From: Actinomycetes bacterium
Lineage (GTDB): Bacteria > Actinomycetota > Thermoleophilia > Gaiellales > Gaiellaceae
Direction: 5' to 3'
Length of the DNA stretch: 64,000 nucleotides
Assembly: GCA_026708005.1 (NCBI GenBank)
Contig: JAPOVR010000076.1
Span: 1 to 64,000, forward strand
Part shown: piece by piece, positions 31,081 to 64,000 of the stretch
How the letters are laid out: each line of letters starts with the position of its first letter
Numbering within the stretch: position 1 is the first letter of the stretch
Program-made: the position numbers and the translations under genes
Notes under the pieces: generated by a model
Database searches by the model: none
Told to the model about the DNA's origin: nothing
Seen by the model: only the letters and a program-made list of their open reading frames with translations

Positions 31081-31180
31081 GCGCAGAATTGGCACAGCTT
31101 CGTGACGGTTTTGTGACAGATTGCGCGAAAGCTGTGCGCGCTCCTCGGCTACCCCCGGGTGGGGGGTGGGTCCACCGCTC
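31081..31180 (+). repeat. Dispersed intergenic element, copy D
   Basis: GCGCAGAATTGGCACAG, CGTGACGGTTTTGTGACAG, GCGCGAAAGCTGTGCGC, then a stem AGCTG/CGGCT (a G-U pair replaces C-G, pairing kept), TACCCCCGGGTGGGGGGTGGG. It lies about 460 bases upstream of mobA, same strand. The remaining stretch to 31627 shows no gene. Confidence 0.75.
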
Positions 31181-31627
31181 CCGCGGCTCGGCGCGGCGGC
31201 TCGGCACCGCGGCTTGGCCTCAAAACTCGGCCTCGCAGCGACTCAGCGGAGCCCCGCACAGCGGCCCGGCGACCCGTCAAAGCCGCCGACAAGTCCGCCT
31301 GGCAGGGCGCTCGAGCAAGGACCGCGGAGCGGGCTACTGGCCGGCTTGGCCTCCATGACCAGGACGGCCGCACCGCACCGCCGGCCGCCTACTGCCGCAG
31401 CCCGATCGTCGAAGTCTGCACCCCAGTCCTTGGCCCACCGAACACAGCCCCACCGGCCGCCCACCACCGCAGCGGCGACGAGCAACACCCAGACCGAACA
31501 ACGCAGACCGACGCCCCCCAGCCCAACCAGGCTCGCCAACCAGACGCGGCTGCGTCGATCGGCCTCGACGCACCGGTCTGGTCGTGGTCAGCACGGCCGG
31601 CCGGTGGCCGCTGCTCTAGCGCCGGAG

Positions 31628-31639
31628 TACCATGACCCC
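31628..31639 (+). promoter_or_regulatory. Leaderless-type promoter -10 (TACCAT, N6, ATG) of the mobA operon
   Basis: TACCAT at 31628-31633 is followed by six bases and the ATG at 31640. It selects this ATG over the out-of-frame ATG at 31632. Confidence 0.5.
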
Positions 31640-38917: not shown

Positions 38918-39360
38918 CCGTCGACGTAAGGCACGTCGTTCCACCCGGGTTCCGTGGGGCCTAGGAGGTCGCAGATAGCTTCGTGGGTGTGGGCTCTCGG
39001 ATGGGCGAACGGTCGCGGTAGCCCGAGGCCGCGCGGCCTGGTGCACGTAGCCGCAGCCGCGTCCTGCCGCGGGCACAGCAGCCCCTGTGGCGGCTCTCGA
39101 CAGTCGAGGGCGGTTGGTCGCACGTCCTTTCCACCCGGCGTGGTCCTCGCCGAAGGGCAACCCGCGAGGTCGGCCCCGCACGGGGTTGGCTCCGGACCCT
39201 GCGCACATGAGCTGGCCCGACCCTGCATCCACCCTGCACCTGCAGCTGAGCCGGGCGGGAGCGAGAGCAGCGTTGGCTCGCCCTCAGCGTCTGCGGCCCG
39301 GCTAGGTGGCACGCTTGGAAGAACTCGGCGTCAGCGCGGCCAGGCGGGCCGGCTGAGTAG
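38918..39360. other. Gene-free region after fdhB
   Basis: No convincing gene. On the minus strand a frame ending at 38917 reads AHTHEAICDLLGPTEPGWNDVPYVDG, protein-like in composition, but lacks a credible start and recognisable domain; it may be the 3' remnant of a lost gene. Confidence 0.35.
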
Positions 39361-39470
39361 CAATGGCGCAGGCCCGTGACAGAGTTGTGACAGCCCGTGC
39401 ACAAGCTGCGCGCATATCTCGGCTACCCTCCTCTGGGTGGTACGTGGGGGGCAGGCTGCCCTTCGCGGCG
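39361..39470 (+). repeat. Dispersed intergenic element, copy E
   Basis: CAATGGCGCAG, CGTGACAGAGTTGTGACAG, then a stem AGCTG/CGGCT with the G-U replacement, TACCCTCCTCTGGGTGG and a G-run, ending CTGCCCTTCGCGGCGG. It lies 350 bases upstream of moeA, same strand. Confidence 0.7.
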
Positions 39471-39815
39471 GCTTGCTCAAGCAGCCGCCCACACCACTCG
39501 TCAAGGAGTAGCGGGCAAGGAAAGCCGCCTCGCGTCCGCCGGCCGACTCGACCCACGATACACGACCCCCCATACGCCCGAGGACACCGATAGCCTCCAC
39601 GGCGTCCACCAGAGCAACCGGCCGGACAAGCCAGAGAGGCTCTTCCCCTCGAACGAGGCATGTGCGAGGGCAACAGGCGTGGCCTCGGCGTGGGTGAGGC
39701 GCACCGGCGATCGTCTTCCACATCGGCGACCGGCTTACCGCTTAGGAACGAGCTCGCTCCAGCACGGCTGAGCGTCGAAGGGCGCCTCTGCGGGGTGCAA
39801 CGTCCGCATGAGGCT

Positions 39816-39827
39816 TACACTGGCGAG
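39816..39827 (+). promoter_or_regulatory. Leaderless-type promoter -10 (TACACT, N6, GTG) of moeA
   Basis: TACACT at 39816-39821 precedes the GTG at 39828 by six bases, supporting that start for the first moeA gene. Confidence 0.5.
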
Positions 39828-41051
39828 GTGTCCGGCGAATTCTTTCGCGTCCGGCGGGTCTCAGAGGCGCTTCAGGCCTTCACGCCGACAAGACGCGCAG
39901 GGACCGAGGAGATCGAGCTTGGATCGGCGCTCGGCCGGGTGACGGCAGCCGATCTCCACGCCCGAGCCCCACTGCCGGGCTTTGCCAGGGCAACGGTCGA
40001 CGGCTACGCGCTCCGGGCCCGTGACACGTACGGAGCATCCGACAGTCTCCCCGCCTACATCACGGTCGTAGCCAGGGCGGCAGTCGACGCGCCCCCTGCC
40101 GCACGGCCCGAGTCAGGCCAGGCCGTTGCGGTTCCGACCGGCGGCGCCGTCCCGCCAGGCGCAGACGCGGTCGTCATGGTCGAGCACACGTCGGAGACGA
40201 CAGCCGGCACGATCGAGGTGACACGGCCGGCCGCGCCGGGAGACGGGTTGGTCGGCCCCGACGAGGACGTGCGGCACGGCCAGCGCCTGGTACAGGCGGG
40301 TCGTCGGCTACGAGCCCAGGACCTCGGCCTGCTGGCGGCCGCAGGCCTCACGCGGGTCGCCGTCCGCAGAAGACCGGTCGTCGGCATCGTCTCCACAGGC
40401 GATGAGCTGGTCCCGCCGGACACCCACTCGCTCCGGCCGGGGCAGGTCCGCGACGCCACCGCCTCGGCGGTCGCTGCGATCGCCATCGAGTCAGGCGCCG
40501 AGGCCGCCTATCTCGGGATCGCGCGCGACGAGCCAGCTGCACTGCGTGAAATCATGGCCAAGGGCCTAGAGCGCTCAGACCTCCTCGTCGTCTCGGCCGG
40601 CTCGTCGGTGGGTGCACGTGACATCACCGCCGAGGCGGTGGCCTCACTTGGCAAGCCAGGAATCTGGTGCCACGGTCTGGCGATCAAGCCAGGGAAGCCC
40701 ACGCTCTTGGCGGAGTGCGGAGACGTTCCGCTCATCGGCCTGCCAGGAAACCCGCTGTCGGCGCTCGTGGTGTTCAGACTCGTCGGCGCTCCCCTCATCG
40801 ACGCCGTCGCCGGGAGCACCCACTACGCGAGGCGGCCGATCCGCAGTGCCCACCTCTCGCGCGACGTTCCCTCCGCTGCTGGGCGCCTCGACATCGTCCA
40901 GGTCACGCTTACTGGGGACTCTGCTACTCCGCTCTTTGGCAAGTCGGCGCTCCTCTCGACGCTGGCACTCGCCGATGGCCAGATCGCGGTTCCCGAGGAA
41001 GCAAGCGGTCTCGTGGCCGGCACAGCAGTGGAGGTCGAGCTTCATGGCTAG
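39828..41051 (+). CDS. moeA: Molybdopterin molybdenumtransferase MoeA
   Basis: Inserts molybdate (or tungstate) into adenylylated molybdopterin. 407 residues with the canonical segments LPGFARATVDGYALRA, VPTGGAVPPGADAVVMVE, STGDELV, SAGSSVGARD and GLPGNPLSALVVF. The frame is open 170 bases upstream, but the leaderless promoter and homology both support the GTG at 39828. Overlaps the second moeA gene by eight bases. Supports the FDH and AOR enzymes encoded just upstream. Confidence 0.93.
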   Translation: MSGEFFRVRRVSEALQAFTPTRRAGTEEIELGSALGRVTAADLHARAPLPGFARATVDGYALRARDTYGASDSLPAYITVVARAAVDAPPAARPESGQAVAVPTGGAVPPGADAVVMVEHTSETTAGTIEVTRPAAPGDGLVGPDEDVRHGQRLVQAGRRLRAQDLGLLAAAGLTRVAVRRRPVVGIVSTGDELVPPDTHSLRPGQVRDATASAVAAIAIESGAEAAYLGIARDEPAALREIMAKGLERSDLLVVSAGSSVGARDITAEAVASLGKPGIWCHGLAIKPGKPTLLAECGDVPLIGLPGNPLSALVVFRLVGAPLIDAVAGSTHYARRPIRSAHLSRDVPSAAGRLDIVQVTLTGDSATPLFGKSALLSTLALADGQIAVPEEASGLVAGTAVEVELHG

Positions 41052-47236: not shown

Positions 47237-48955
47237 ATCGGGACCAGGCACGATGCACAGACCGACACGCGCGTTCTCGCGGAGATAATCTCGACGGTCG
47301 CCTCGACGCTCGAGCTCGACCGGGTGTTGGCCGCGATCGTCTGCCTCCTGTCGGAGGCGAGCGCGGTTCACGCGTGCTTCGTCTACCTCCTCGATGAACG
47401 CGGCGAGCAGCTCGTGCTGCGCGCTGCCTCCGATCCGTTTGGCCGGCTCGTCGAGGAGATCTCGCTCGCTCGGGGCGAGGGGCTCGCCTGGTGGGCGGTC
47501 GAGCGCCAAGAGCCGGCCTTCATCAAGGATAGGGCGCTTGAGGACCCGCGCTTCAAGTACGTGCCAGAGCTCGGCGAGGAGGACTTCCAGTCGCTGGTCT
47601 CCGTGCCGATCCTTAGCCGAAGTGGCGAGTCGATCGGCGCCATCTCGCTCCACACCGAGGCACCTCGGGAGTTCACTGCCACCGAGGTCGATTTCCTCGC
47701 CTCAAGCTCCTCGCTCGTTGCCGGCGCAATCGAGAACGCGCGGCTCTATGAGGAGACCCGGCTGCGCGTCCACCAGCTCGAGCGGCTGAACGCGCTCGGC
47801 GAAGCCGTGGCGCGAGCCACCACCCGTGCCGAGCTCCTTCCTGCGATCTCAGCGGGAATCCGAGAGCTGCTTCAAGCCGAAGCCTGTCATCTGTACACGC
47901 TCGCGGCGACCGGTGATCGACTGACGCTCGAGGTGTCGACGCCGAGCGACTCGGCGGCGCCAAGCGGGCTGCCGCTGGCGGATGTCGGCGCGGAGCTGGT
48001 CCGGGGAGGGGCTTGCAGCCCCGAATCGCTGCTCGTCCCGCTGCCGGTCCATGGTGAGCTCCGTGGCGTGATCTCGCTGCGCGCCATTGAGGGTCGAGGC
48101 TTTCGCAATGAGGACGGCGAGCTCGCCCGCACGGCTGCAAACCAGGCTGCGCTGGCGATCGAGCGCCTCGAGCTCGTCGACCGTCTGCGCGAGGAGAACC
48201 TGATCGGCGACTTTCTCGACGACCTTGCAGCCGGCGCCCGTACCGAGGACCTCACGACCCGCGCGAAGCGTCTCGGTGTGGACCTCGCGGCCCCCTACCT
48301 CGTCCTGAGCGCCCACCCGACGCCACGCACAATCACCGACGCGTGGGTCGATCAGCTCGAGACCGAAGTGCTCCGGCTGGCGCCGGGCGCTCTCGTCGAG
48401 CGTCGTGGCGACCAGCTGCGGGGGCTGTTGCGAGCGCGCGACCCCGAGCAGGCAACGGTCGCGCTGGAGGAACTCCAATCGGATCTCGACCTGCCCGCCG
48501 TCATCGGTCTCTCGGGCCCGTGCACGGGAGCCGAGGCGCTCGAGGCCGGGTTCGATGAGGCGCAACAGGCAGCGCTCGCCGCATCGCTGTTGACGGACGG
48601 ACCGCCCGTGCGCGCCTTTCCGCAGCTGGGCCCGTATCGATACCTGCTGCAGCTGGAGCCCGGGGCGGCAGACCGCGATCCGCTCGTCGGCGCCGTGCGA
48701 GCGATCGCCGACTACGACCGCGCCCGCTCGGCATCCCTGCTCAAGACGCTTGCCACCTACCTACGGCTTCGTGGCAGCGTACGAGCGACAGCCGAGGCGC
48801 TCTATGTCCATCCCAACACGCTGCGCCAGCGCCTTGGCCGCATCGGCGAGCTCACCGGCATCGACCTGGCCGGTGACGATCTCCTCGCGCTCGAGATCGC
48901 GGTCAGGCTGGTCAGCATGGAGGTGGCTCGGAGTGACTCGGCATCTCCCAGCTGA
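47237..48955 (+). CDS. GAF-domain transcriptional regulator with PucR-type helix-turn-helix
   Basis: About 572 residues if started at 47237, 543 from the first GTG (47324). The GAF domain spans roughly residues 20-180 (LDRVLAAIVCLL, CFVYLLDERGEQLVLRA, FQSLVSVPIL); a second GAF-like region follows at about 190-310. The C-terminal HTH_30 reads SLLKTLATYLRLRGSVRATAEALYVHPNTLRQRL in pieces typical of PucR/CdaR activators. The helix RVLAEIISTVASTLELDRVL typical of the family begins before the GTG, so the real start is upstream although no ATG/GTG exists there. Divergence and distance favour control of gmaS, 59 bases downstream (inference). Confidence 0.85.
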   Translation: MGTRHDAQTDTRVLAEIISTVASTLELDRVLAAIVCLLSEASAVHACFVYLLDERGEQLVLRAASDPFGRLVEEISLARGEGLAWWAVERQEPAFIKDRALEDPRFKYVPELGEEDFQSLVSVPILSRSGESIGAISLHTEAPREFTATEVDFLASSSSLVAGAIENARLYEETRLRVHQLERLNALGEAVARATTRAELLPAISAGIRELLQAEACHLYTLAATGDRLTLEVSTPSDSAAPSGLPLADVGAELVRGGACSPESLLVPLPVHGELRGVISLRAIEGRGFRNEDGELARTAANQAALAIERLELVDRLREENLIGDFLDDLAAGARTEDLTTRAKRLGVDLAAPYLVLSAHPTPRTITDAWVDQLETEVLRLAPGALVERRGDQLRGLLRARDPEQATVALEELQSDLDLPAVIGLSGPCTGAEALEAGFDEAQQAALAASLLTDGPPVRAFPQLGPYRYLLQLEPGAADRDPLVGAVRAIADYDRARSASLLKTLATYLRLRGSVRATAEALYVHPNTLRQRLGRIGELTGIDLAGDDLLALEIAVRLVSMEVARSDSASPS

Positions 48956-49014: not shown

Positions 49015-50370
49015 ATGGCGCATGGTGCCACGACGGTCGAGGACGTTCGCAGAATCAGCAACGAGCGCGGGATCGAGTTCTACTTCGCTCAGTTCGTCGA
49101 CCTCTACGCAAGACCAAGTGCGAAGCTGATCCCGGCCGCCAACCTCGACGACCTGCTCACCGAAGGCGCTGGCTTCGCGGGGTTCGCCGCTGGCGAGCTC
49201 GGCCAGACCCCGGACGATCCCGACATCGCTGCCATGCCAGACCCGGCAAGCTTCACACCGGTCCCGTGGCAGCAGAACCTCGGGCGGTTCGCGTGCGACG
49301 TCACGGTTGAGGGCGAGGCATGGCCCTACGACCCGCGGACGATCCTCAAGAGAGTGCTCGCGACAGCCAAGGAGAAGGGCCTCGACTTCAAGATGGGCCT
49401 CGAGCTTGAGTACTTCCTCCTTCAGCGTAACGAGGACGGCTCTCTCCGCGTTGCGGACGAATTCGATACGCTCGAGAAGCCCTGCTACGACCTCAGGGGG
49501 CTCACCCGCAACTACGAGCTGCTCACCACGGTATCCCGATATGTGAACGAGCTCGGCTGGGGCAACTACGCGAACGATCACGAGGATGCAAACGGCCAGT
49601 TCGAGCAGAACTTCACGTATGCCGACGCGCTGACCAGCTGCGACCGAGCGATCTTCTTCCGCTACATGATCCATACGCTCGCACATGAGCGAGGGCTGCT
49701 GGCGACCTTCATGCCGAAGCCCTTCAGCCACCTGACCGGCAACGGCTGCCACTTCCACATGTCGCTCTGGGACGGCGAGACGAACGCGTTCCTCGAAGAG
49801 AGCGACCCGCTTGGACTGTCCGAGATGGCCTACCACTTCATCGGCGGCCTCAAGAAGTATGCGCGCGCCTATAGCGCGCTCACGGCTCCGACCGTCAACT
49901 CATACAAGCGCCTCAAGGTCGGGACGACGGCAAGCGGCGCGACCTGGTCTCCGGTGTGGATCAGCTACGGCTACAACAACCGGACTCAGATGCTCCGAGT
50001 CCCTGCCCCAGGGCGAGTCGAGGAGCGCACGGTCGACGGCGCGTGTAACCCGTACCTCGCCGCGGCCGCGCTCCTGGCCGCAGGACTCGACGGAATCGAG
50101 AACGAGATAGACGCGGGCGAGCCGAACTCCGAGAACCTCTTCGATACGCCGTACGACGAGCTGGTCAGCAGGGGGATGAGGACGCTGCCAGGAACGCTGA
50201 TTGAAGCAACGCACGAGCTCGAGCGCTGCCAGGTGATGCGCGAGGCGCTCGGCCGAGGCCGAGACGAGGACATCGTCGACTGGTACGTCGGCATCAAGCG
50301 CAGGGAGTGGAACCGCTACCACGAGCAGGTCTCGCCCTGGGAGGTCAACGAGTATCTCAGCCTGATGTAG
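49015..50370 (+). CDS. gmaS: Type III glutamine synthetase-like ligase, probable gamma-glutamylmethylamide synthetase
   Basis: ATP-dependent ligation of an amine to glutamate. 451 residues of the glutamine synthetase superfamily: FKMGLELEYFLL (metal Glu), NDHEDANGQFEQNF, the ATP-site NGCHFHMSLWD and a C-terminal RVPAPGRVEERTVDGACNPYLAAAALLAAG. The C-terminal EWNRYHEQVSPWEVNEYL end is characteristic of the GlnT/GMAS group (TIGR03105), which uses methylamine in methylotrophs. GAGGAGGAAC precedes the ATG. With Mgs- and Mgd-like genes 3-13 kb downstream, a methylamine role is favoured over plain ammonia assimilation; this remains inference until assayed. Confidence 0.85.
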   Translation: MAHGATTVEDVRRISNERGIEFYFAQFVDLYARPSAKLIPAANLDDLLTEGAGFAGFAAGELGQTPDDPDIAAMPDPASFTPVPWQQNLGRFACDVTVEGEAWPYDPRTILKRVLATAKEKGLDFKMGLELEYFLLQRNEDGSLRVADEFDTLEKPCYDLRGLTRNYELLTTVSRYVNELGWGNYANDHEDANGQFEQNFTYADALTSCDRAIFFRYMIHTLAHERGLLATFMPKPFSHLTGNGCHFHMSLWDGETNAFLEESDPLGLSEMAYHFIGGLKKYARAYSALTAPTVNSYKRLKVGTTASGATWSPVWISYGYNNRTQMLRVPAPGRVEERTVDGACNPYLAAAALLAAGLDGIENEIDAGEPNSENLFDTPYDELVSRGMRTLPGTLIEATHELERCQVMREALGRGRDEDIVDWYVGIKRREWNRYHEQVSPWEVNEYLSLM

Positions 50371-50728: not shown

Positions 50729-53260
<2,532 letters not shown>

Positions 53261-53327: not shown

Positions 53328-54257
53328 ATGTGCGGAATCGCAGGAATCCTCTACAAGGACGGCGCCGAGCCTGCGAGAGCAGACGGGCTCGGGCTCGGCC
53401 ACGACCTGATCACCATGCTCGACGGCTGCCAGCACCGTGGGCCAGACTCGACCGGCTTCGCCCTCTACCACGAGCCCTCGGCCGACGACCAGCTGCGCCT
53501 GCGCTTCTTCGTCGGCGAGGGCGAGCAGGCGGCGGAGACCGTGGCTCACATCAAGGCGAAGCTCGCCGAGCTCGATGCGGAGGTCACCGAGGAGGAGGCC
53601 ATCGGCAGCACGCACCGCCTGACCGTCAGCTTCCGCGGCGACATCCAGCAGTTCGCCTATGCGATGGAGCACGTGGCACCGGTGGTGTCGATCGGGCAGA
53701 GCCTCGACATCATCAAGGACATCGGCGGAGCGCACGACGTCGATGCCGCCTACGGGATCGCCGACTTCGACGGTACGCACGGCATCGGCCACGTTCGACT
53801 CGCCACCGAGTCAGACGTCACGCCCGACGCCTCGCACCCGTTCTGGGCGACTGGGTTCGCCGACATCGCCATCGTCCACAACGGGCAGATCACGAACTAC
53901 TGGAAGATGCGGCGCCGGCTCGAGAAGCGCGGGTTCGAGTTTAACACCGACAACGACTCGGAGCTGATCGCCGTCTACCTCGCAGACAAGCTCGCGCAGA
54001 AAAAGACGCTGAGCGAGGCGCTCGAGTCCTCGATCGGCGACCTCGATGGCACGTTCTCGTTCCTCGTCTCGACCAAGGACGAAATCGGGTACGCGAAGGA
54101 CCGCCTCGCCGCCAAGCCCATGGTCATGTACGAGGACGACGACCTCGTTGCGATCGCCTCCGAGGAGGTCTCGCTCAACAAGCTCTTCCCAGGCCGCTCG
54201 CTGGCGACCATGGAGCCGGCCCCGGGCACCTTCCGCACATGGCGACGCTCGACCTAG
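53328..54257 (+). CDS. mgsA: Class II glutamine amidotransferase, probable N-methylglutamate synthase subunit A
   Basis: 309-residue Ntn-type amidotransferase. Cys2 (MCGIAGIL) becomes the N-terminal nucleophile after Met removal; CQHRGPDSTGFAL, HVRLATES, HNGQITNYWKMRR and NTDNDSELIA match GltB/GlxB-type glutaminase domains. In the N-methylglutamate route MgsA would release methylamine from gamma-glutamylmethylamide for channelling to the synthase barrel. Overlaps the next gene by 19 bases. Homologous proteins occur beside glutamate synthase-like genes in rhizobial glx operons, so the precise substrate is inferred from the cluster. Confidence 0.85.
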   Translation: MCGIAGILYKDGAEPARADGLGLGHDLITMLDGCQHRGPDSTGFALYHEPSADDQLRLRFFVGEGEQAAETVAHIKAKLAELDAEVTEEEAIGSTHRLTVSFRGDIQQFAYAMEHVAPVVSIGQSLDIIKDIGGAHDVDAAYGIADFDGTHGIGHVRLATESDVTPDASHPFWATGFADIAIVHNGQITNYWKMRRRLEKRGFEFNTDNDSELIAVYLADKLAQKKTLSEALESSIGDLDGTFSFLVSTKDEIGYAKDRLAAKPMVMYEDDDLVAIASEEVSLNKLFPGRSLATMEPAPGTFRTWRRST

Positions 54258-56203
54258 CCGAGCTCTCGGTTCGCGAGGCGAACGAGCGGCTGCGCGAGTA
54301 CGGCGCGGCCGGCGAGGATGTCGAGGTCGTCAACCCCGACGCGCGCCACCACATCGGGGTTGGGCTCGTTCACCCGATCACCGTGCACATCAAGGGGTCG
54401 GCCGGCTACTTCTGCGCCGGCCTCACCGACGGGCCGCGCTTCGAAGTCGACGCGAACGTCGGCTGGGGCCTCGCCGACAACATGCTCGGCGGCTCCGTCG
54501 TTGTGCGAGGCAACGCCAGCGCGATCCCCGGCGTCGCGGTCCGAGGAGCCGAGGTCGTCGTGCAGGGCAACATCGGCTCGCGCGCCGCACAGGTGATGAA
54601 GGAAGGCACGCTCTGCGCCGGCGGCAACGCGAACTTCATGGCCGGCTACATGATGTACGGCGGCCGGCTGATCATCTGCGGCGACTCCGGCGAGCATCTC
54701 GGCCAGGACATGACCGGCGGCACGATCTACGTCGGCGGCCGGGTGCAGTCGCTCGGAACCGACGCCGAACCCGTCGATTTACCCCTGGAGGAGCTCGACG
54801 AGGTCATGAGCTTCCTGGAGCGCTACGAGGTCCCGTTCAACGGCGGGACATTCACGAAGGTGGTCAATGCCGGCAAGCACCTCCGCTATCCGAGGCTGGA
54901 GCGCCGCGTGCGGGTTGTCCCCTTCTTCGTCGCGTCCGAGCCCACCGACTACTGGAACGAGAAGGTGCAGGAAGACATCTCGGTCAAGGCGCAGATCGGC
55001 CGCTACCGGATCCGCGGGTACGGCGCCGGCCGGCCGCTCCCCCACCTCTCCGATGTCGTGTTCAAGCGAGACCTCCACACGATTCCCCCGGATCCTGAGG
55101 TTGTGTCGAAGATCAGCCTCGCCACCGAGCTCGGCGGCCGCTTCGGCGCCAAGCCGCTCGACCTCTCGATGCCGGTGATGATCGCGCCCATGAGCTTCGG
55201 CGCGCTCAGCAAGTCGACGAAGATCGCGCTTGCCAAGGCGTCCGCGCTCTCCGACATCGCCGACGGCACCGGCGAGGGCGGCCTAATCCCGGAGGTGCGG
55301 GAGGCCGCGAAGCGCATCGTCGTCCAGTGCCTCGGCGGACGTCTGGGCTGGAACATCCACGACATGCAGCGAGCCGACGGGATCGAGATCTACATCTCCC
55401 AGGGGGCCAAGCCAGGCCTCGGCGGACAGCTGATGGCCAAGAAGGTCACCAAGGAGATCGCCACCATCCGCGGTATCCCCGCCGGTATCGACCTGCGCTC
55501 GCCCTCGCGGCACCCCGACGTGCTCGGCGCCGACGATCTCGTGATCAAGGTCGAGGAGTTCCGTGAGGCAACAGGCTGGCGGAAGCCCGTCTCGGTCAAG
55601 CTCGGCGCAGGGCGCGTGCCCGACGACATCAAGATTGCCTACAAGGACGGCTTCGACTACGTCTGCCTCGACGGCGTCCAGGGATCGACCGGCGCGGCCA
55701 GCAGCGAGGTGCTCGAGTTCGTGGGCATTCCCACGCTGTCGGCGATCATCGAGGCCATCGATGCGCTCGAATCGATCGGGGCAGTCTGCATGCCGCTCGT
55801 GCTCATGGGGGGCATCAAGGACGGAATCGACACCGCCAAGGCGATCGCGCTGGGCGCGCACGGGGTCGCGCTCGGCACGAGCGCGATCATCGCCGGCGGG
55901 TGCATCGCGTGCCTCCAGTGCCACGTCGGATCGTGCGTCGTCGGCATCGCCACACAGGATCCGGAGCACGAGAAGCGCTACAATATCGACGTCGAGAGCT
56001 GGAACATCCACCGCTACCTCGAATCGGTCCGCTGGCAGCTCGCGTCGATCGTGCACGCACACGGCTACGAGCGCGTGCACGAGCTCTCGCGCGACGATCT
56101 CGTCGCGCTCACGCCAGAGGCGGCCGAGATCACCCGCCTCGAGTATGCGCCAGAGCTGCGCGACGAGCGCGGCCAGCCGCTGCAGCTGGCCGCGGCCTCG
56201 TGA
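54239..56203 (+). CDS. GXGXG domain fused to FMN glutamate-synthase domain, probable MgsB-MgsC fusion
   Basis: 654 residues. Residues 1-165 form the right-handed GXGXG helix (VVVRGNASAIPGVAVRGAEV, GGRLIICGDSGEHLGQDMTGG). Residues about 240-600 are the FMN TIM barrel of glutamate synthase (MPVMIAPMSFGALS, GTGEGGLIPE, QGAKPGLGGQL, GLDGVQGSTGAASSEV-like) with the [3Fe-4S] motif CLQCHVGSCVVG. Usually these are two proteins, MgsB/GlxC and MgsC/GlxD. Expected reaction: 2-oxoglutarate plus methylamine equivalents and reductant to N-methylglutamate. Lies between mgsA and the GltD-like reductase with one-base spacing. Confidence 0.87.
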   Translation: MATLDLAELSVREANERLREYGAAGEDVEVVNPDARHHIGVGLVHPITVHIKGSAGYFCAGLTDGPRFEVDANVGWGLADNMLGGSVVVRGNASAIPGVAVRGAEVVVQGNIGSRAAQVMKEGTLCAGGNANFMAGYMMYGGRLIICGDSGEHLGQDMTGGTIYVGGRVQSLGTDAEPVDLPLEELDEVMSFLERYEVPFNGGTFTKVVNAGKHLRYPRLERRVRVVPFFVASEPTDYWNEKVQEDISVKAQIGRYRIRGYGAGRPLPHLSDVVFKRDLHTIPPDPEVVSKISLATELGGRFGAKPLDLSMPVMIAPMSFGALSKSTKIALAKASALSDIADGTGEGGLIPEVREAAKRIVVQCLGGRLGWNIHDMQRADGIEIYISQGAKPGLGGQLMAKKVTKEIATIRGIPAGIDLRSPSRHPDVLGADDLVIKVEEFREATGWRKPVSVKLGAGRVPDDIKIAYKDGFDYVCLDGVQGSTGAASSEVLEFVGIPTLSAIIEAIDALESIGAVCMPLVLMGGIKDGIDTAKAIALGAHGVALGTSAIIAGGCIACLQCHVGSCVVGIATQDPEHEKRYNIDVESWNIHRYLESVRWQLASIVHAHGYERVHELSRDDLVALTPEAAEITRLEYAPELRDERGQPLQLAAAS

Positions 56204-56204
56204 G

Positions 56205-58775
56205 ATGAGCGAGCGCAACACCCCCGCGTTCAGCGAGCCGCCGGAGCTGGACGTCTACGGCCGCGAGCGAGTCGACCCGCCGCCCGTCCCACCCGAGTTC
56301 GCGGCGGAGGACGACGTCAACGACCAGAACTACGTCCCGGCACCCTGCCAGGTTGCCTGCCCGATCGGCACCGACGCTCCCTCGTACATCGCCTACATCT
56401 GGGAGGGGAAGATCGAGGAGGCCTTCGAGGCGATCACCGCGACGAACCCGTTCAGCTCGGTCTGCGGCCGGGTGTGCGACGCGCCGTGCGAGCCAGCCTG
56501 CCGGCGGACGGAGTCCGATGGGCCGATCGCGATTCGCAACCTCAAGCGCTTCGTCATGGACCGGCTCGGCAAGGACCACCGCCTACCGCCCGTGCCCGTC
56601 ACGAAGGAGCAGACTGTCGGCATCGTCGGCGGCGGCCCTGCCGGGCTCACCGCAGCGCAGGGTCTCGCTGAGGCCGGCTACGCCGTCGACGTCTACGAGC
56701 TAACCGAGATGCTCGGCGGCTACATGACCTGGGGGATCCCGGCCTTCCGCTGCCCGCCGGAGATCTTCAAGGAAGACATCGACCGCATGCTGGCCCGCTG
56801 CCCCGGCATCACCATCAACCTGAACACCGGCCTTGGCCGGGACATCACGCTGGAGAAGCTCAAAGAGCGGCACGACGCGGTGCTGCTGACGATCGGCGCC
56901 TGGTGGGGCAAGGGGCTCGAGCTCGCCAACGCCGGCTACGACGACCGGGTCATCGATGGAGTGACGTTCCTGCGCCACGTCAACGGCGGCACGCGGCCAG
57001 AGCTCCCGCAGAAGGTCATCGTCGTGGGCGCCGGCGACGTCGCGATGGACGCATGCCGCGTCGCCAAGCGCCTGCCGGGCTGCGAGGACGTCAAGGTCCT
57101 GTACCGGCGAGGCCCAAACGAGATCCCCGCGCGGCGCGACGAGCTCGAGGGAGCGCTCGAGGAGGGTGTCGAGCTGATCTACAACGTGCAGCCGGTCGCC
57201 GTGGTCGGCACCAATGGCAGCAATGGGTCGTTCGCGCTCCGGTGCGTCACGACCGAGCTGACCAAGCCAGGCGACGACGGGCGGCGGTGGCCCGCGAGCA
57301 TTGCGGGCTCCGAGCACGACTACGACTGCGGCATGGTCATCCTAGCCACAGGCCAGCGATCCGAATGCGAGGAGCTCGACAGCCTCGGGATGCTCGCGAA
57401 CGACAAGGTCCACACCGACTGGGACTCGATGCGGACAACCGATCCAAAGGTCTTCTCGGCCGGCGATGCGGCGTTCGGACCGTCCACCATCGTGATGGCC
57501 ATGCAGCACGGCCATCGCGCCGCCTACTACATCAAGGCCTTTCTTGAAGGGGTCGAGGGCCCTCTCCCGTACCGCGTGCCGTTCAAGACCCGGCGCGTGC
57601 CCATCGCCGACGACCCCGACTGGGAGATCTTTCCGCGGGAGCACCAGGATTTCCGCGGGCTGGGCGAGCAGCCGGTCGAGTTCCCGGAGATCGAGACGAC
57701 CTACGACGAGGACGCCGCACGGCGTGAGGCGGCACGGTGCTACCGCTGCGACGCCGAGACCGGTGCGGCCGACTACAACGTCCACACCCGCGAGGACATC
57801 TTCGTGATGGCGCGGACGAAGCCCGAGAACGCCACGAAGCAGCGCGCGATCTTCACGAAGCGGCTCGCGCTGCGAGGTGATCCGTTCGCCGAGAAGCCAG
57901 CCACCCTCGAGGACCTCGTCTTCCTCCCCGCCAACCTCTCGCGGCTTGTGATCGATCCATACCGAGACGCATGTAACGTCACGACGAGCCTGGGCAGCCG
58001 CCTCGAGCTCGGCTCGCCCTTCATGGCAGCGGGCTTCGATAGCACGCCCAGCGAGGTGCGCGAAGCCGTTGCCCACGCCCTGCGCACCCAAAACCTCGGC
58101 TACCTCGGGCACCGTAGCATCGGAGACGGCGTGCACTGGCTCCAGGTCATCGTGCCCGGCGAGGGCGAGCCCTCCCCGGATGCTGCCGCGGTCATCGCCA
58201 CGGCTCCAACCGGCCTCGAACGGGCGCATGCCGACCAGCTGCTCGGGCTGACGGCCCGGAGCGACCAGCTGCGGGAGAGGATCCCGCTGGCGCTGCAGGC
58301 GGAGCTCGACCTCATGGTGCTCGAAGGAAGCTCCCAGGTCATCGACCCGTGGCCCGAGCTCGCCGGCCCACCGGATCTCACCGTCCTGCGCGACGCGATC
58401 GCGCTCTTGCGCGAGCTGAACCACGAGGAGGACCTCCAGCTCGTGTACTTCGGCGGTGTTCGATCAGGCACGGACGGTGCCAAGCTGATCGGCTTGGGCG
58501 CCAACACGGTCGTGGCCAGCATGGCGATCGCGCTTGCGATCGGCGGGACGATCGAGAACGGCGGCGTGCGCTTCTACGGCAACATCGAGGCCGCCGAGCG
58601 AGACGAAGCTGCCGAGCTCTTCCTCAAGGCGCTTGCCTACGAGGCATCGATCATGCCCCGCTGCACGGGCAAGACCGACATCCACAACATCGAGCCCGAG
58701 GACCTCCGCTCGATCACCGTCGCGACAGCCGAGGCAACCGGCCTGCCGCTCGCGGGTGCACGGGCGAGCCGATGA
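56205..58775 (+). CDS. GltD-like NAD(P)H oxidoreductase fused to a second FMN-type TIM-barrel domain
   Basis: 856 residues. The N-terminal 590 resemble the glutamate synthase small subunit: Cys-rich domain (PCQVACPIGTDAPSYI, CGRVCDAPCEPAC), FAD loop GIVGGGPAGLTAA, NADPH loop VVGAGDVAMDACRVA and GDAAFGPSTIVMAMQHGHRAA. Residues about 640-850 are a shortened glutamate-synthase-like barrel (LELGSPFMAAGFDSTP, LVYFGGVRSGTDGAKLIGLGANTV) ending in a Cys-containing MPRCTGKTDIHNIEPEDL. It probably feeds electrons to the synthase encoded upstream. A GltD-barrel fusion is uncommon; the role of the second barrel is unknown. Confidence 0.8.
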   Translation: MSERNTPAFSEPPELDVYGRERVDPPPVPPEFAAEDDVNDQNYVPAPCQVACPIGTDAPSYIAYIWEGKIEEAFEAITATNPFSSVCGRVCDAPCEPACRRTESDGPIAIRNLKRFVMDRLGKDHRLPPVPVTKEQTVGIVGGGPAGLTAAQGLAEAGYAVDVYELTEMLGGYMTWGIPAFRCPPEIFKEDIDRMLARCPGITINLNTGLGRDITLEKLKERHDAVLLTIGAWWGKGLELANAGYDDRVIDGVTFLRHVNGGTRPELPQKVIVVGAGDVAMDACRVAKRLPGCEDVKVLYRRGPNEIPARRDELEGALEEGVELIYNVQPVAVVGTNGSNGSFALRCVTTELTKPGDDGRRWPASIAGSEHDYDCGMVILATGQRSECEELDSLGMLANDKVHTDWDSMRTTDPKVFSAGDAAFGPSTIVMAMQHGHRAAYYIKAFLEGVEGPLPYRVPFKTRRVPIADDPDWEIFPREHQDFRGLGEQPVEFPEIETTYDEDAARREAARCYRCDAETGAADYNVHTREDIFVMARTKPENATKQRAIFTKRLALRGDPFAEKPATLEDLVFLPANLSRLVIDPYRDACNVTTSLGSRLELGSPFMAAGFDSTPSEVREAVAHALRTQNLGYLGHRSIGDGVHWLQVIVPGEGEPSPDAAAVIATAPTGLERAHADQLLGLTARSDQLRERIPLALQAELDLMVLEGSSQVIDPWPELAGPPDLTVLRDAIALLRELNHEEDLQLVYFGGVRSGTDGAKLIGLGANTVVASMAIALAIGGTIENGGVRFYGNIEAAERDEAAELFLKALAYEASIMPRCTGKTDIHNIEPEDLRSITVATAEATGLPLAGARASR

Positions 58776-58794
58776 GAGCGCGAGACCCGAGACC

Positions 58795-59067
58795 GTGACC
58801 TTCCTCTTACTCTGTCCCAACTGCGGGCCGCGTGCTGTCGAGGAGTTCATCACGACCGGCGAGGTCACCGTACGGCCGACGGCGGCGCCCAGTCGCCGTG
58901 AGCTTTCGCGGTACATCTACTTCAGGACCAACGCCGCTGGCAGCCAGCGCGAGTGGTGGTACCACCGCCATGGCTGCGAGCTCTGGTTCCTGGCAGAACG
59001 CGACACGCGCACGAACGAGGTGTTGGGGACGGAGCTACCGCCGGCGACCCGCCCGGAGGCAGGATGA
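58795..59067 (+). CDS. Sarcosine oxidase delta-like subunit, probable N-methylglutamate dehydrogenase subunit (MgdB-like)
   Basis: 90-residue zinc-binding SoxD-family protein. It starts LLLCPNCGPRAVEEF (CxxC zinc pair), with REWWYHRHGCELWFLAERDT towards the C-terminus, where the family carries the remaining ligands. The GTG at 58795 is the first start after the GltD-like gene. Overlaps the alpha subunit gene (ATGA). Small structural subunit of heterotetrameric sarcosine oxidase-type enzymes. Confidence 0.85.
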   Translation: MTFLLLCPNCGPRAVEEFITTGEVTVRPTAAPSRRELSRYIYFRTNAAGSQREWWYHRHGCELWFLAERDTRTNEVLGTELPPATRPEAG

Positions 59068-61727
59068 CGCGGCTCCCACCACGGGCAACCGAGCGGCTCG
59101 ACCGCTCCCAGACGGTCGCGTTCACGTTCGAGGGCCGCACCGTGCAAGGCTACGCGGGCGACACGATCGGATCAGCGCTGTACGCAGCTGGGCAGCGAAT
59201 CTTCTCGCGGAGCTTCAAGTACCACCGCCCCCGCGGCCTCCTCTGCTGCAGCGGACATTGCCCGAACTGCATGATGACCGTCGATGACGTGCCGAACGTG
59301 CGCGTGTGCGCCGAGCCCCTGCGTGAGGGCGCAGCGGTCAGGGCGCAGAACGTGATCGGATCGCTCGAGCGCGATCTCTTGAGCGTCGTCGACAGGGTCG
59401 CAGGCCCTTTCATGCCGCCGGGGTTCTATTACAAGACGTTCATTCGCCCGAGACGGTTCTGGCCGCTCTACGAGAAGCTCTTGCGCGGGGCCGCCGGCCT
59501 GGGCCGAGTCGATCCGCACGCGGAACGGACCGGCCGATTCGATACCGAGGATCGCCGCGTGGACACGCTGGTCGTCGGCGGAGGCAGAGACGGCCTCAAG
59601 GCGTCGATCGCGGCAGCCTCGGGCGGCGAGAGCGTCGCGCTCGTCGATGAGAACCCCGAGGTCGGTGGCAGCCTGCTGCTGAGCGAGACGGGCGTCTCCC
59701 AGGCGCGCAAGCTCTGTGAGCAGGCACGCCGGGCCGGCGTCGACGTCCTCGCGTCGGCTCGAGCGATCGGGCTGTACGAGGGGAAGCTCGTGCCCGTCGA
59801 CTGCGGCGAGCTCCTGATCCGGTTTCGTGCAGAGCGCGTCATCGTGGTCGCAGGGACCGCTGAGCAGCCGCTCGTGTTCCCCGGGAACGACCTCGTCGGA
59901 GTCGTGCTCCCGCAGGCGGCACGACGGCTCGTGAACCACTGGGCAGTTCGGCCCGCCGAGAGCGCCGTCGTCATCACGGCGGACGACACCGGGCTCGAGG
60001 CCGTCGAGGATCTGCAGGCGGCTGGCACGAAGATCGTCGCTGTCGTGGATCTCCGGCAGCGGGAGCCGCGAGCGATCGCCGCCCGCGGCAGGCGTGGAGC
60101 CGTCACCGCCGTCGAGATCGACGGTCAGCGCCTGGCCTGCGACCTCGTCGTCGCCTCGGGCAGCCCACAGCCAAACTACGCGCTGCTCGCCCATGCCGGC
60201 GCGAAAGTCGAGCACGACCCCGCCCGAGGCGTGTTCATCCCGACGGAGCTGCCGGCCGGCGTTGAGTCAGTCGGCGCAGCGGCCGGCCTGATCGGCGCGC
60301 CCGCCGTTCCCGCGGCAAGCTACGAGCCCGCCCGCAGGCGGCCGGGCAAGAGCTTCGTGTGCCTCTGCGAGGACCAGACGACGAAGGATCTCAAGCTCGC
60401 GATCAACGAGGGCTTCGACTCGATCGAGCTCTCCAAGCGCTACACCACCGTGACCATGGGCCCGTGCCAGGGCCGGCTGTGCCACCTCAACTCGATCCGC
60501 ACGTACGCGGCGGAGACCGCCAGCAGCGAGGCATCGATCGGCACGACAACCGCCAGGCCGCCCTGGGCGCCGGTGTCGCTCCAGCTGCTGGCCGGGCGCG
60601 CGCACGAGCCCGCCCGCCGGACGGCACTGCACCACCGCCACAGGGAGCACGGGGCCGAGATGATCTGGACCGGCGAGTGGCGGCGCCCGTATTCCTACGG
60701 CGATCCCGCCGGCGAGGCCGCGGTGGTGCACGACGCGGTCGGCCTGATCGACGTGTCGACGCTCGGCAAGATCCTCGTTGCCGGCCCGGAGGCCGCAGCC
60801 TTCCTCGAGCGCATCTACCCGAACCGCTTCGGGAACATGGAGGAGGGCCGCATCCGCTACGGCGTGCTCACGTCCGATGCCGGCCGAATCATGGACGACG
60901 GCACGCTCGCGCGGCTCTCGCCGAACGAGTACTACGTCACGACGACATCGACCGGCGCGGAAGGCGTCATCGAGTGGTTCGAATGGTGGAACGCCACCTG
61001 GCAGCACGACGTCGAGATCATCAACGTCACGAGCGCCCTCGCAGCGGTCAACATCGCCGGCCCGTCGTCCCGCGAGCTGCTCGGACGGCTTACCGACCTC
61101 GACGTCACGGCTGAGGGGTTCAGATACCTCGATGCGAAGAGGGCGTACGTCGCGGGCATCCCGAGCCTCCTGCTGCGCATCGGCTTCGTCGGCGAGCTCG
61201 GCTACGAGGTTCACTTCCCGAGCCCGTATGCAGTCGACTTCTGGAACACGGTGCTCGAGCGCGGCGCCGACCTCGGGGTCGACGTCTTCGGGCTCGAGGC
61301 GCAGCGAATCCTCCGCCTCGAGAAGGCCCATATCATCATCGGGCAGGACACCGACTCGGAGTCGAACCTCCTAGAAGCGTCGATGCCCTGGATTCTCAAG
61401 CTCGACAAAGACGACTTCGTCGGTCGCTGGTCGACTGAGCATGTCGATCGGCGGGGGCTGATGACGAGGCTCGTGGGGTTCGAGATGGACGCGGCGCAGC
61501 TGCCGCTCGAGGGGGGCCAGATCGTCGAGAACGGTCGAATCGTCGGACGGGTGACCAGCGTGAGGCGCAGCGAGGCGGTCGGCCGCACCATCGGCCTCGC
61601 CTGGGTGCCCGCTGAGAGCGCCCAGGAGGGAGCCGAGATCGACATCCAAGTCGACGGGCGCCCTGCTCCCGCCACCGTGACGCTGAAGCCGTTCTACGAC
61701 GCCGAAGGGGAGCGGCTGCGCGCGTGA
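59064..61727 (+). CDS. Sarcosine oxidase alpha-like subunit with two Fe-S motifs, probable MgdC
   Basis: 887 residues. The N-terminal ferredoxin-like domain has C-C-x2-H-C-x2-C and a further Cys (SGHCPNCMMTVDDVPNVRVC), a [2Fe-2S] pattern. A FAD/NAD-binding domain follows from about residue 165 (TLVVGGGRDGLKAS, with RD in place of the usual PA). A BFD-type CxC...CxxxxC region lies near 430-475 (VCLCEDQTTKDLK, GPCQGRLC). The C-terminal half is a T-protein/GcvT-like tetrahydrofolate-binding domain from about 530. It would bind the folate that accepts the N-methyl carbon as methylene-THF. The extra Fe-S sites suggest a dehydrogenase rather than an O2-using oxidase. Confidence 0.87.
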   Translation: MTRLPPRATERLDRSQTVAFTFEGRTVQGYAGDTIGSALYAAGQRIFSRSFKYHRPRGLLCCSGHCPNCMMTVDDVPNVRVCAEPLREGAAVRAQNVIGSLERDLLSVVDRVAGPFMPPGFYYKTFIRPRRFWPLYEKLLRGAAGLGRVDPHAERTGRFDTEDRRVDTLVVGGGRDGLKASIAAASGGESVALVDENPEVGGSLLLSETGVSQARKLCEQARRAGVDVLASARAIGLYEGKLVPVDCGELLIRFRAERVIVVAGTAEQPLVFPGNDLVGVVLPQAARRLVNHWAVRPAESAVVITADDTGLEAVEDLQAAGTKIVAVVDLRQREPRAIAARGRRGAVTAVEIDGQRLACDLVVASGSPQPNYALLAHAGAKVEHDPARGVFIPTELPAGVESVGAAAGLIGAPAVPAASYEPARRRPGKSFVCLCEDQTTKDLKLAINEGFDSIELSKRYTTVTMGPCQGRLCHLNSIRTYAAETASSEASIGTTTARPPWAPVSLQLLAGRAHEPARRTALHHRHREHGAEMIWTGEWRRPYSYGDPAGEAAVVHDAVGLIDVSTLGKILVAGPEAAAFLERIYPNRFGNMEEGRIRYGVLTSDAGRIMDDGTLARLSPNEYYVTTTSTGAEGVIEWFEWWNATWQHDVEIINVTSALAAVNIAGPSSRELLGRLTDLDVTAEGFRYLDAKRAYVAGIPSLLLRIGFVGELGYEVHFPSPYAVDFWNTVLERGADLGVDVFGLEAQRILRLEKAHIIIGQDTDSESNLLEASMPWILKLDKDDFVGRWSTEHVDRRGLMTRLVGFEMDAAQLPLEGGQIVENGRIVGRVTSVRRSEAVGRTIGLAWVPAESAQEGAEIDIQVDGRPAPATVTLKPFYDAEGERLRA

Positions 61728-62353
61728 CCGTCGGCGGACTCGACTTCCTCAGTGTCGAGCGCGCAGAGGCCGCCGGCGAGTTTCGCCTGCTCGCCCGCTC
61801 GTCGATGGAGCAACGGCAGCGAGACGCCGAAGCGGTGTTCGCCGAGCGCGACGGCTGGCTCACGGCGGTGTCGTTTCCCGAGGAGACGGCGCACCTTGCC
61901 AGCGTCGGAATCGCCGACCTCAGCCACCTCGGCAAGCTCGAGATACGGGGTGCCAGCCAGCCGCCGCTCGACCCCGACGTCGTCTGGTACCAGGTGCATC
62001 CCGAGCGCGCCCTGTGCATCTTCCCGCCAGGCCGAGCCGCCGCCCTTCAGCAGGGGCTCGTGCGCGGCGGCGCGCACGTCATCGACCAGTCGGCCGGTCT
62101 CGCGATCCTCGCACTCGTCGGCCCCCATGCCCGCGCCCTCCTGCGACGGCTGACCGACCTCGACGAGCTGCCGGCGAGCGGCCACGCCGCACGTGTCCGC
62201 GCCGATGTGCTCGACCGCGGCAGCGGCGTCTGGATCGTCTTCGGGCAGGATTACGGCCACTACCTCTGGGAGGTCGCCGTCGACGCGGCTGCGCCCTTTG
62301 GCGGCGGTCCAATCGGCCTCGACGTCCTCGAGCAGGAGGAGAGCGCCCGGTGA
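61724..62353 (+). CDS. Sarcosine oxidase gamma-like subunit, probable MgdD
   Basis: 209 residues, SoxG/GcvT-like fold: FRLLARSSMEQRQRDAEAVFA, VGIADLSHLGKLEIRG, SAGLAILALVGPHARALLRRLTDLD. Starts at a GTG overlapping the alpha subunit stop and ends overlapping the beta-like gene (GTGA). Small folate-domain subunit of the heterotetramer. Sequence conservation in this family is low; the assignment rests on both motif and position. Confidence 0.8.
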   Translation: MTVGGLDFLSVERAEAAGEFRLLARSSMEQRQRDAEAVFAERDGWLTAVSFPEETAHLASVGIADLSHLGKLEIRGASQPPLDPDVVWYQVHPERALCIFPPGRAAALQQGLVRGGAHVIDQSAGLAILALVGPHARALLRRLTDLDELPASGHAARVRADVLDRGSGVWIVFGQDYGHYLWEVAVDAAAPFGGGPIGLDVLEQEESAR

Positions 62354-63564
62354 GAGACATCTTTCTGCGACGGCGCATGTGGCGCCGCCGGCCCGAGCTG
62401 CAAAGGAACTACGACGCGGTCATCATCGGCGGCGGCTCCCACGGTCTCGCGACCGCGTACTACCTGGCGAAGAACCACGGCCTGACAGACGTGTGCGTGC
62501 TCGAGAAGAGCTACATCGGCTCGGGAGCCGCCGGGCGGAACACGACCATCATCCGCTCGAACTACCGCACCCCCGAGGGCGCGGAGTTCTACCAGCGGAG
62601 CGTCGAGCTCTACGAGCGCCTCTCGGCGGAGCTCGGCTACAACCTCATGTTCTCGCAGATTGGCCACCTGACCCTGGCGCACACCGAGCGGGCGATGGTA
62701 ACGATGGCGGAGCGCGCGGAGGTGAACCAGCTGCTCGGCATCAGAAGCCGGGTCGTCGATGCCTCAGGCGTCAAGGAGCTATGCCCGGAGATCGAGATCG
62801 GAGACACCGTGACGTGGCCGATCATGGGCGCCCTCTACCACGAGCCCGGCGGGATCATCCGCCACGATGCCGTCGTCTGGGGCTACGCGCGCGGCGCTGA
62901 TCGGCTCGGGGTCGAGATCCACAACGCCACCGAGGTGACGGGCATCGAGCGCTCGAACGGGAAGGTCACGGGCGTTCAGACAACCCGCGGTCCGATCGCC
63001 TGCGACACGGTTGTCAGCTGCACGGCCGGCTGGTCGACGCTGCTCGCGAACATGGTCGGGGTCGAGCTGCCGATCTGGACCAGCATTCTCCAAGCCTTCG
63101 TGACCGAGCCTGTCAAGCCGTTCCTCGATGTCGTGATCGTGTCCTCCCAGATGCACGTCTACATCTCCCAGACCGACCGCGGCGAGTTCCTGATCGGCGC
63201 CGAGGTCGAGCCGTACTCGACGTACTCCACCCGCGCGACGTTCCCGTTTCTCGAGTACTCGGCGCGGCACGTGCTCGAGCTCTTCCCTCAGCTCGGCGGG
63301 CTCAAGGTGCTTCGCCAGTGGGCCGGGATCTGTGACATGAGTCCCGACTACAGCCCGATCATGGGCGTCACCGAGGTCGACGGCTTCATCGTCGACTGCG
63401 GCTGGGGTACGTACGGCTTCAAGGCCGCGCCGATCGTCGGCACGACGCTCGCAGAGCTCGTCGCGGCCGGCACGACGCCCGCGCTGATCGAGCCGTTTGC
63501 GCTCGAGCGCTTCTACGACGACCTCCCTGTCTCCGAGCTTGCCGCCGCAGCCGTGAGCCACTGA
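62350..63564 (+). CDS. Sarcosine oxidase beta-like FAD subunit, probable N-methylglutamate dehydrogenase catalytic subunit (MgdA-like)
   Basis: 404-residue DAO-family flavoprotein that oxidises the N-methyl amino acid. Dinucleotide loop DAVIIGGGSHGLATAYYLAK (residues about 22-41), EKSYIGSGAAGRNTTIIRSNYRTPEG (flavin contact region), and C-terminal QWAGICDMSPDYSPIMG and DCGWGTYGFKAAP, as in SoxB. The GTG at 62350 overlaps the gamma-like stop. Gene order here is D-A-G-B, whereas most operons are B-D-A-G. Sarcosine, dimethylglycine and N-methylglutamate substrates cannot be told apart by sequence alone; the neighbouring mgs-like genes favour N-methylglutamate. Confidence 0.87.
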   Translation: MRDIFLRRRMWRRRPELQRNYDAVIIGGGSHGLATAYYLAKNHGLTDVCVLEKSYIGSGAAGRNTTIIRSNYRTPEGAEFYQRSVELYERLSAELGYNLMFSQIGHLTLAHTERAMVTMAERAEVNQLLGIRSRVVDASGVKELCPEIEIGDTVTWPIMGALYHEPGGIIRHDAVVWGYARGADRLGVEIHNATEVTGIERSNGKVTGVQTTRGPIACDTVVSCTAGWSTLLANMVGVELPIWTSILQAFVTEPVKPFLDVVIVSSQMHVYISQTDRGEFLIGAEVEPYSTYSTRATFPFLEYSARHVLELFPQLGGLKVLRQWAGICDMSPDYSPIMGVTEVDGFIVDCGWGTYGFKAAPIVGTTLAELVAAGTTPALIEPFALERFYDDLPVSELAAAAVSH

Positions 63565-63647
63565 GCCGAGCGGTGTGCTCGCCGAGACCCTCCCCGACCG
63601 CAACGCGCCATCCCCAGTCCAGCGACAGCCACGAGCAGCGGAGTGAC

Positions 63648-64000
63648 ATGACCAGCAGCGTTCCCAGCAACCTGGAGATCGCCCAGGACCACGAGCTTGA
63701 GTCAATCGCCGATCTCGCCGGCCGATACGGCCTCATACCGACCGACTACGACACGTACGGCCGCTTCAAAGCGAAGGTCGACCTCGGCGTGCTCGAGCGC
63801 CTGGCCGATCGGCCCGACGGCAAGCTCGTGTGCGTCACCGCGATCACCCCGACCAAGGCGGGCGAGGGCAAGACGACGACATCGGTGTCGCTCACCCAGG
63901 GGCTTGGCAAGCTCGGACGCCAGCCGATGCTCTGCCTGCGCGAGCCTTCGCTTGGGCCGGTGTTCGGGATCAAGGGCGGTGCCGCCGGGGGCGGCTACGC
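63648..64000 (+). CDS. fhs: Formate-tetrahydrofolate ligase (N-terminal part, cut by the window edge)
   Basis: ATP-dependent, reversible ligation of formate to tetrahydrofolate. The 117 visible residues include the P-loop TPTKAGEGKTTTSVSLTQGL and CLREPSLGPVFGIKGGAAGGG, diagnostic of FTHFS. The ATG at 63648 lies 83 bases after the beta-like subunit, preceded by a GGAG. In context it would release formate and ATP from formyl-THF derived from the methylene-THF made by the upstream dehydrogenase, feeding the formate dehydrogenase at 34-39 kb. The frame continues beyond the window. Confidence 0.95.
   Translation, partial: MTSSVPSNLEIAQDHELESIADLAGRYGLIPTDYDTYGRFKAKVDLGVLERLADRPDGKLVCVTAITPTKAGEGKTTTSVSLTQGLGKLGRQPMLCLREPSLGPVFGIKGGAAGGGY

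Follow-up and report, generated by a model that had tools for sequence, protein, structure and literature searches.

The window analyzed here, a stretch of 64,000 nucleotides, carries a three-gene operon (hereafter the trio) whose last gene encodes a GltD-type reductase fused to a degenerate copy of the FMN subunit MgsC, and this fusion protein appears to be the built-in NAD(P)H reductase powering a previously undescribed version of N-methylglutamate synthase (NMGS). We consider it likely that the trio (positions 53328–58775) is a variant NMGS with its own NAD(P)H reductase, in which the fusion would be the dedicated reductase subunit and its catalytically dead barrel would serve as a docking or assembly domain.

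Architecture of the fusion protein

The fusion gene (table 1) is an uninterrupted open reading frame from an ATG at 56205 to a stop codon at 58773–58775, and its 856 residues are laid out as a reductase (~45–515), a linker (516–565), and a barrel (~566–856). An earlier note on this DNA had described a GltD followed by an extra FMN-type barrel; this architecture holds, but the boundaries that it placed around residues 590 and 600 have to be moved, the reductase ending at ~515 and the barrel starting at 566. Residues 45–515 match GltD-type models (Fer4_20, Pyr_redox_2, and, as best match, NCBIfam PRK12771 at 389 bits) and display the N-terminal Fe–S, FAD, and NADPH domains of a GltD-type beta subunit of glutamate synthase (GOGAT). 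Aligned with 14 homologs of identical architecture (hence 15 family members), the window fusion shares with all of them the N-terminal cysteines 48, 52, 87, 91, 95, and 99, and these 14 further sequences rule out a chimeric assembly artifact as its origin.

The solved structures nearest the reductase half are molybdopterin oxidoreductase subunits, NfnA, a dihydropyrimidine dehydrogenase subunit, and GltD. Its closest relatives are the PRK12771/NfnA-type GltD-like reductases (PDB 9n5u, 8oh5), with homology reaching residue ~509–515; unlike the fusion, these have no MgsC-like barrel, and the fusion itself falls below the PRK12771 cut-off (389 vs. 516 bits). The GltD-type half of dihydropyrimidine dehydrogenase (PDB 1h7x, 1gt8) also matches. 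That enzyme carries a C-terminal FMN TIM barrel on its reductase chain, which is catalytic and of the dihydroorotate-dehydrogenase type, whereas the fusion barrel derives from MgsC and no longer has an active site. No model in the profile library searched covers the fusion as a whole, and no report of such a fusion was found in the literature (open-licence papers).

Searched alone, the C-terminal part stays below Pfam gathering scores (Glu_synthase 16.4 bits, FMN_dh 17), and family-wide these two models match the barrel in 11 and 12 of the 15 members, respectively. This part is nonetheless unambiguously homologous to MgsC: a blastp comparison with an MgsC-type protein gives 87–103 bits, and hhalign against the MgsC of Rhizobium etli gives 99.6% (E 4.7e-25, 287 columns). 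An AlphaFold2 model of the barrel, built from fusion sequences alone, without MgsC sequences, has a confident core that FMN alpha-hydroxyacid-oxidase barrels match at Z ~18 over ~217 residues; because such oxidases fill the Foldseek/VIA match lists, the absence of GltB from them is uninformative. The hhalign, blastp, and fold matches together rule out an unrelated domain at this end of the protein, which the earlier note had named as a finding that would speak against its reading. The model of the full-length fusion reaches a pTM of 0.48, at which relative domain positions are unreliable.

By homology and TIM-barrel fold, the barrel belongs to the MgsC/Glu_synthase FMN domain, but not as a catalytic member, its substrate/FMN loops and Cys cluster being absent. 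When it is aligned with MgsC, GlxD, and GltB, the MSFGALS, QGxKPGxGG, and GGTGA-type (GGTxA-type) loops are missing and none of the [3Fe–4S] cysteines is left, so that the earlier remark that the full Cys cluster is missing was right and even understated. It retains an FLPxxLxRxVIxxYRxxC segment, a C-terminal HNIEPEDL segment, and a phosphate-type loop, GGVRSGTDxAKLIGLGA (conserved form GGxRSGTDxAKxIGLGA). In a tree, the fusion barrels group in a single clade whose branch is very long (2.55 changes per column), and dN/dS in close pairs is 0.13–0.20 for six pairs and 0.43 for one, against 0.09–0.11 (one pair 0.32) for the reductase half. Taken together, the lost loops and cysteines, the segments kept, and the low dN/dS argue that the barrel is a pseudo-enzyme domain under purifying selection rather than debris. 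In or near the C-terminal half, Cys512, Cys515, Cys590, and Cys820 are invariant in 15 of 15 members, and they might form an extra metal or Fe–S site.

Table 1. Features of the window discussed in the text
Feature	Position	Strand	Evidence or remark
GAF/PucR-type regulator	47324–48955	+	Conserved beside gmaS or the trio in relatives
GmaS-type gamma-glutamylmethylamide synthetase	49015–50370	+	DHEDANGQFE and SGATWSP motifs; best PDB match 9qur
Monomeric NADP-isocitrate dehydrogenase (icd)	50729–53254	-	Divergent from mgsA
MgsA-like class II amidotransferase subunit	53328–54257	+	Starts MCGIAG; catalytic Cys2
Fused MgsB (GXGXG) and MgsC (FMN) synthase subunit (MgsBC)	54239–56203	+	Overlaps mgsA
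Intact [3Fe–4S] motif C-x5-C-x4-C of MgsBC (Cys555, 561, 566)	55901–55936	+	Aligned with GltB
Fusion gene, GltD-type reductase and degenerate MgsC-like barrel (856 aa)	56205–58775	+	Open reading frame, profile matches, alignment, hhalign
GltD-type half, residues 45–515	56337–57749	+	Six invariant N-terminal Cys; FAD and NAD(P)H Rossmann domains; terminal RCYRCD
Degenerate FMN TIM barrel of MgsC/GlxD origin, residues 566–856	57900–58772	+	No [3Fe–4S] Cys; catalytic loops lost
Retained FMN-phosphate-type loop GGVRSGTDGAKLIGLGA in the barrel, residues 750–766	58452–58502	+	Alignment
SoxD/MgdB-like subunit	58792–59067	+	
SoxA/MgdC-like subunit, start inferred	59064–61727	+	
SoxG/MgdD-like subunit	61724–62353	+	
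SoxB/MgdA-like subunit, start inferred	62377–63564	+	41–43% to MgdA of Paracoccus and R. etli
fhs, formate–tetrahydrofolate ligase, cut by the window end	63645–64000	+	

A conserved trio that replaces mgsABC in several genomes

The fusion start codon lies 1 nt downstream of the MgsBC stop, and wherever the flanks can be read the genes follow one order: MgsA-like amidotransferase, fused MgsB–MgsC, fusion. The trio comprises the three modules of an NMGS, as seen from Pfam matches (GATase, GXGXG, and Glu_synthase) and blastp to the canonical subunits. Its C-x5-C-x4-C motif is kept by MgsBC in 13 of the 13 sequences aligned and lines up with that of GltB in solved NADPH-glutamate synthases. In the tree, GltB rows stand apart (support 100/100) and MgsBC falls within the MgsC/GlxD group rather than with GltB; it forms a clade of its own with no sister group fixed, outside any clade with methylamine-locus MgsC, and for this reason we file the trio as an NMGS-like variant and not as an orthologue. 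No fusion was seen in an ordinary GOGAT locus in the genomes searched, every flanked copy lying within a trio; a copy in such a locus was what the earlier note had said would refute its reading. Its proposal of a dedicated electron donor is well supported by this absence, by the strict linkage of the fusion to one synthase, and by the [3Fe–4S] cysteines which that synthase has kept.

The fusion occurs in 18 genomes, from the window's class and Hyphomicrobiales, with full-length or partial copies in 5 of 299 genomes of that class and in 13 of 347 genomes from the order to which the Hyphomicrobiales MAG L013 belongs. A draw of 398 genomes from the phylum of L013 added none, no other full copy was present among the 296 genomes sampled from the window's phylum (the weak matches examined being MgsC-type proteins), and a search of plasmids returned only MgsC-type partial matches. 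A GmaS-type enzyme is present in 17 of the 18 fusion genomes. Among 249 Hyphomicrobiales, GmaS is found in all 11 fusion genomes versus 90 of 249 overall (Fisher P = 9e-6), and the fusion in 5 of the 7 GmaS genomes without canonical MgsC versus 6 of the 83 with it (P = 2e-4); both P values ignore relatedness and overstate independence because the genomes are related by descent and include drafts. Many genomes are indeed drafts or MAGs, so some absences may be gaps.

Locus comparisons provide stronger evidence for a methylamine link than these genome counts, and they show the trio standing in for missing mgsABC in several genomes. In G111, from the window's family, the order is PucR–gmaS–mgsA–mgsB–mgsC, where the window has PucR–gmaS, icd on the opposite strand, the trio, soxDAGB (mgd), and fhs. 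G637 carries regulator–mgsABC–gmaS–mgd; in its close relative G875, regulator, a ribonuclease T2 gene, gmaS, and mgd follow on a 172-kb contig with no N in the stretch, the trio is present in the genome, and no trace of mgsABC was found between regulator and gmaS or elsewhere in that genome. In G437 and G443, gmaS–soxDAGB–fhs form one block, the trio lies elsewhere, and there is no canonical MgsC (G437 additionally has GlxD types). The linkage to both gmaS and mgd that marks an NMGS is seen in the window and in G596, in which trio, gmaS, purU, regulators, and mgd share one locus within 17 kb (trio–gmaS–purU–mgd). Neither gmaS nor mgd is found in every trio locus. In locus L080, a ribonuclease T2 family gene (7760–8512, minus strand) takes the place between regulator and gmaS that mgsABC occupies in the close relative L126.

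With regard to the neighborhood in the window itself, whose genome is 92.7% complete, the GmaS-type gene at 49015 was compared with published GmaS diagnostic motifs (PMC7948447): the flap Glu of ammonia-type glutamine synthetase is replaced by Trp, the catalytic Asp/Glu of DHEDANGQFE are kept, and its best PDB match is a glutamate–methylamine ligase. The Sox complex shares 33–43% identity with known Mgd subunits and falls below the curated SoxA/SoxB cut-offs. The icd product would supply both 2-oxoglutarate and NADPH, which makes it an attractive part of the system, but relatives' trio loci gave no Icd match and it was ruled out. Farther upstream lie a SelB gene followed by tRNA-Sec, that is, selenocysteine machinery (12654–14601), and, at 31121–41051, an aldehyde:ferredoxin oxidoreductase-type gene, a formate-dehydrogenase-like molybdopterin oxidoreductase, a NuoE/F-like partner, MobA-like, and MoeA genes; these could form a module for formate oxidation on the upstream side of the methylamine genes.

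Proposed reaction and its alternatives

In GOGAT, electrons pass from NAD(P)H to FAD, on through Fe–S clusters, and to [3Fe–4S] and FMN. On this basis, the variant NMGS would work as follows: GmaS would make gamma-glutamylmethylamide, the MgsA-like subunit would free methylamine from it, and the fused MgsB–MgsC would condense methylamine with 2-oxoglutarate, FMNH2 reducing the imine. By analogy with GOGAT, NAD(P)H would feed electrons into the FAD and Fe–S clusters of the GltD half, from which they would reach the [3Fe–4S] cluster and FMN of MgsBC. The dead MgsC paralogue would, most simply, take an MgsC-like position in place of one MgsC-type partner in the assembly and so anchor the reductase to the catalytic barrel. 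N-methylglutamate would then be oxidized by the Sox-type complex to methylene-tetrahydrofolate and glutamate. What has been observed is the domain make-up, the loss of catalytic loops, the conserved operon, the cysteines kept by MgsBC, and the replacement of mgsABC in several genomes; the reaction, electron path, NAD(P)H preference, cofactor, and docking are predicted.

The trio might instead be an ordinary split NADPH glutamate synthase, turning glutamine and 2-oxoglutarate into two glutamates, that happens to lie near methylamine genes, with the fusion as its GltD. It has every GOGAT catalytic feature, gmaS or mgd does not always adjoin it, and in G000, G437, G443, and G530 the fusion is the only GltD homolog, so that in these genomes it could be used for general glutamate synthesis; yet a full-size GltB is encoded in G000, GltD homologs of ordinary size accompany the fusion in most of its Hyphomicrobiales genomes, the synthase lies within the MgsC/GlxD group, and both the co-occurrence with GmaS and the replacement of mgsABC point to methylamine, which makes this reading rather improbable. 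We regard as more improbable still that the trio makes an N-alkylglutamate from some other amine (dimethylamine, ethylamine, or a polyamine) through a GmaS-like ligase, beside a canonical NMGS. Six Hyphomicrobiales do have both mgsABC and the trio, which may therefore do something additional there, GmaS-like enzymes are diverse, and the trio loci of G704 and G775 adjoin MttB-type and OYE/TMADH-type genes. Against this, no amine-specific partner is conserved with the trio, and in G875, G596, G904, and the window's relatives, GmaS and Mgd/Sox are the only other pathway parts found, which fits methylamine. In two related genomes the trio has MttB-family and OYE/TMADH-type genes as neighbors (L060, 3–2650; L064, 17406–19999), hinting at upstream methylamine chemistry.

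As for the barrel, docking to the synthase is our preferred and plausible reading. That it still binds FMN and acts as another site of redox chemistry or of regulation by ligand sensing, rather than as a pure scaffold, seems unlikely, if less so than either alternative above: the phosphate-binding loop is conserved, and several invariant residues, among them Cys590 and Cys820, are located in the C-terminal segment, with Cys512/515 just before the barrel, but the isoalloxazine, substrate, and Fe–S cluster loops of MgsC/GltB are deleted or replaced, and the length of the branch leading to the barrel clade also speaks against it.

The preferred variant NMGS differs from each of the closest known systems compared. 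Like MgsABC (EC 2.1.1.21), the trio has an MgsA amidotransferase, an MgsB GXGXG domain, and an MgsC FMN domain and is linked, in several genomes, to gmaS and a Sox-type dehydrogenase; in MgsABC, however, MgsB and MgsC are separate, most methylamine-locus MgsC lack the [3Fe–4S] cysteines, and there is no GltD-type subunit, and MgsBC is only ~40% identical to the canonical catalytic subunit. With NADPH glutamate synthase GltBD (PDB 2vdc, 6s6s, 7mfm), it shares the domain set, the C-x5-C-x4-C motif, and a GltD-type reductase, but its synthase is split into amidotransferase and GXGXG–FMN proteins with GXGXG before FMN, its reductase bears the extra dead barrel, and its genomic setting is one of methylamine use. 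The GlxBCD/MgsABC-type synthases with cysteines (glnT–glxBCD loci) have a cluster-Cys FMN subunit beside a type III glutamine synthetase; unlike the trio, they keep MgsB and MgsC separate, and the 12 canonical loci examined contain no GltD-like gene.

Cysteine loss in canonical enzymes and implications

In Paracoccus alcaliphilus, R. etli, and S. meliloti, the methylamine loci have mgsABC–gmaS with Sox-type genes and folD or purU nearby (and, in P. alcaliphilus and R. etli, dimethylamine monooxygenase genes near the mgs locus). Their MgsC read GDN...YDDWHEGKDPAG at the cluster-cysteine positions of GlxD/GltB. Nearly all of 20 further Hyphomicrobiales MgsC (>=74% to R. etli MgsC; one frameshifted and only partly readable) have zero or one cysteine there; a loss common to all canonical MgsC is rejected by two that keep four, G608 (79% to R. 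etli MgsC) and G578 (74%), and in the 51–57% identity class 17 of 17 sampled sequences keep four. By locus, the MgsC genes of L070, L072, L073, and L089–L107 mostly have zero or one [3Fe–4S] cysteine, with L102 and L108 as four-cysteine exceptions. No GltD-like gene was found in the 12 canonical loci examined.

The earlier note had held that canonical mgs operons need a reductant source that is poorly defined. The redox cofactor of NMGS is indeed called unknown in the literature, where the overall reaction proposed is the same as here (PMC6237917), but with the [3Fe–4S] ligands mostly lost and no GltD-like gene at hand, many canonical MgsABC may run without external reductant, and the reported formation of N-methylglutamate by mgsABC without GmaS (PMC6237917) leaves room for a reductant-free glutamate/methylamine exchange in the Cys-less enzymes. 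It follows that the fusion would belong to a distinct synthase variant rather than being the missing part of the canonical enzyme. Tentatively, and at somewhat less than even confidence, we suggest that NMGS exists in two mechanistic forms that have replaced each other in evolution, a common one that has shed its Fe–S cluster and is reductant-free, and a reductive one in which the reductase is joined to a catalytically dead MgsC copy and this pseudo-enzyme barrel assembles the electron chain.

The N-methylglutamate pathway is widespread among methylamine-using bacteria, and it may look incomplete in a genome when mgsABC is the only synthase searched for. The fusion also documents a pseudo-enzyme that arose when an enzyme's own catalytic subunit, present as a decayed copy, was joined to a partner protein. 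Overall, a variant with a covalently defined reductase, set against mostly Cys-less canonical enzymes, would open the redox question of NMGS to direct assay.
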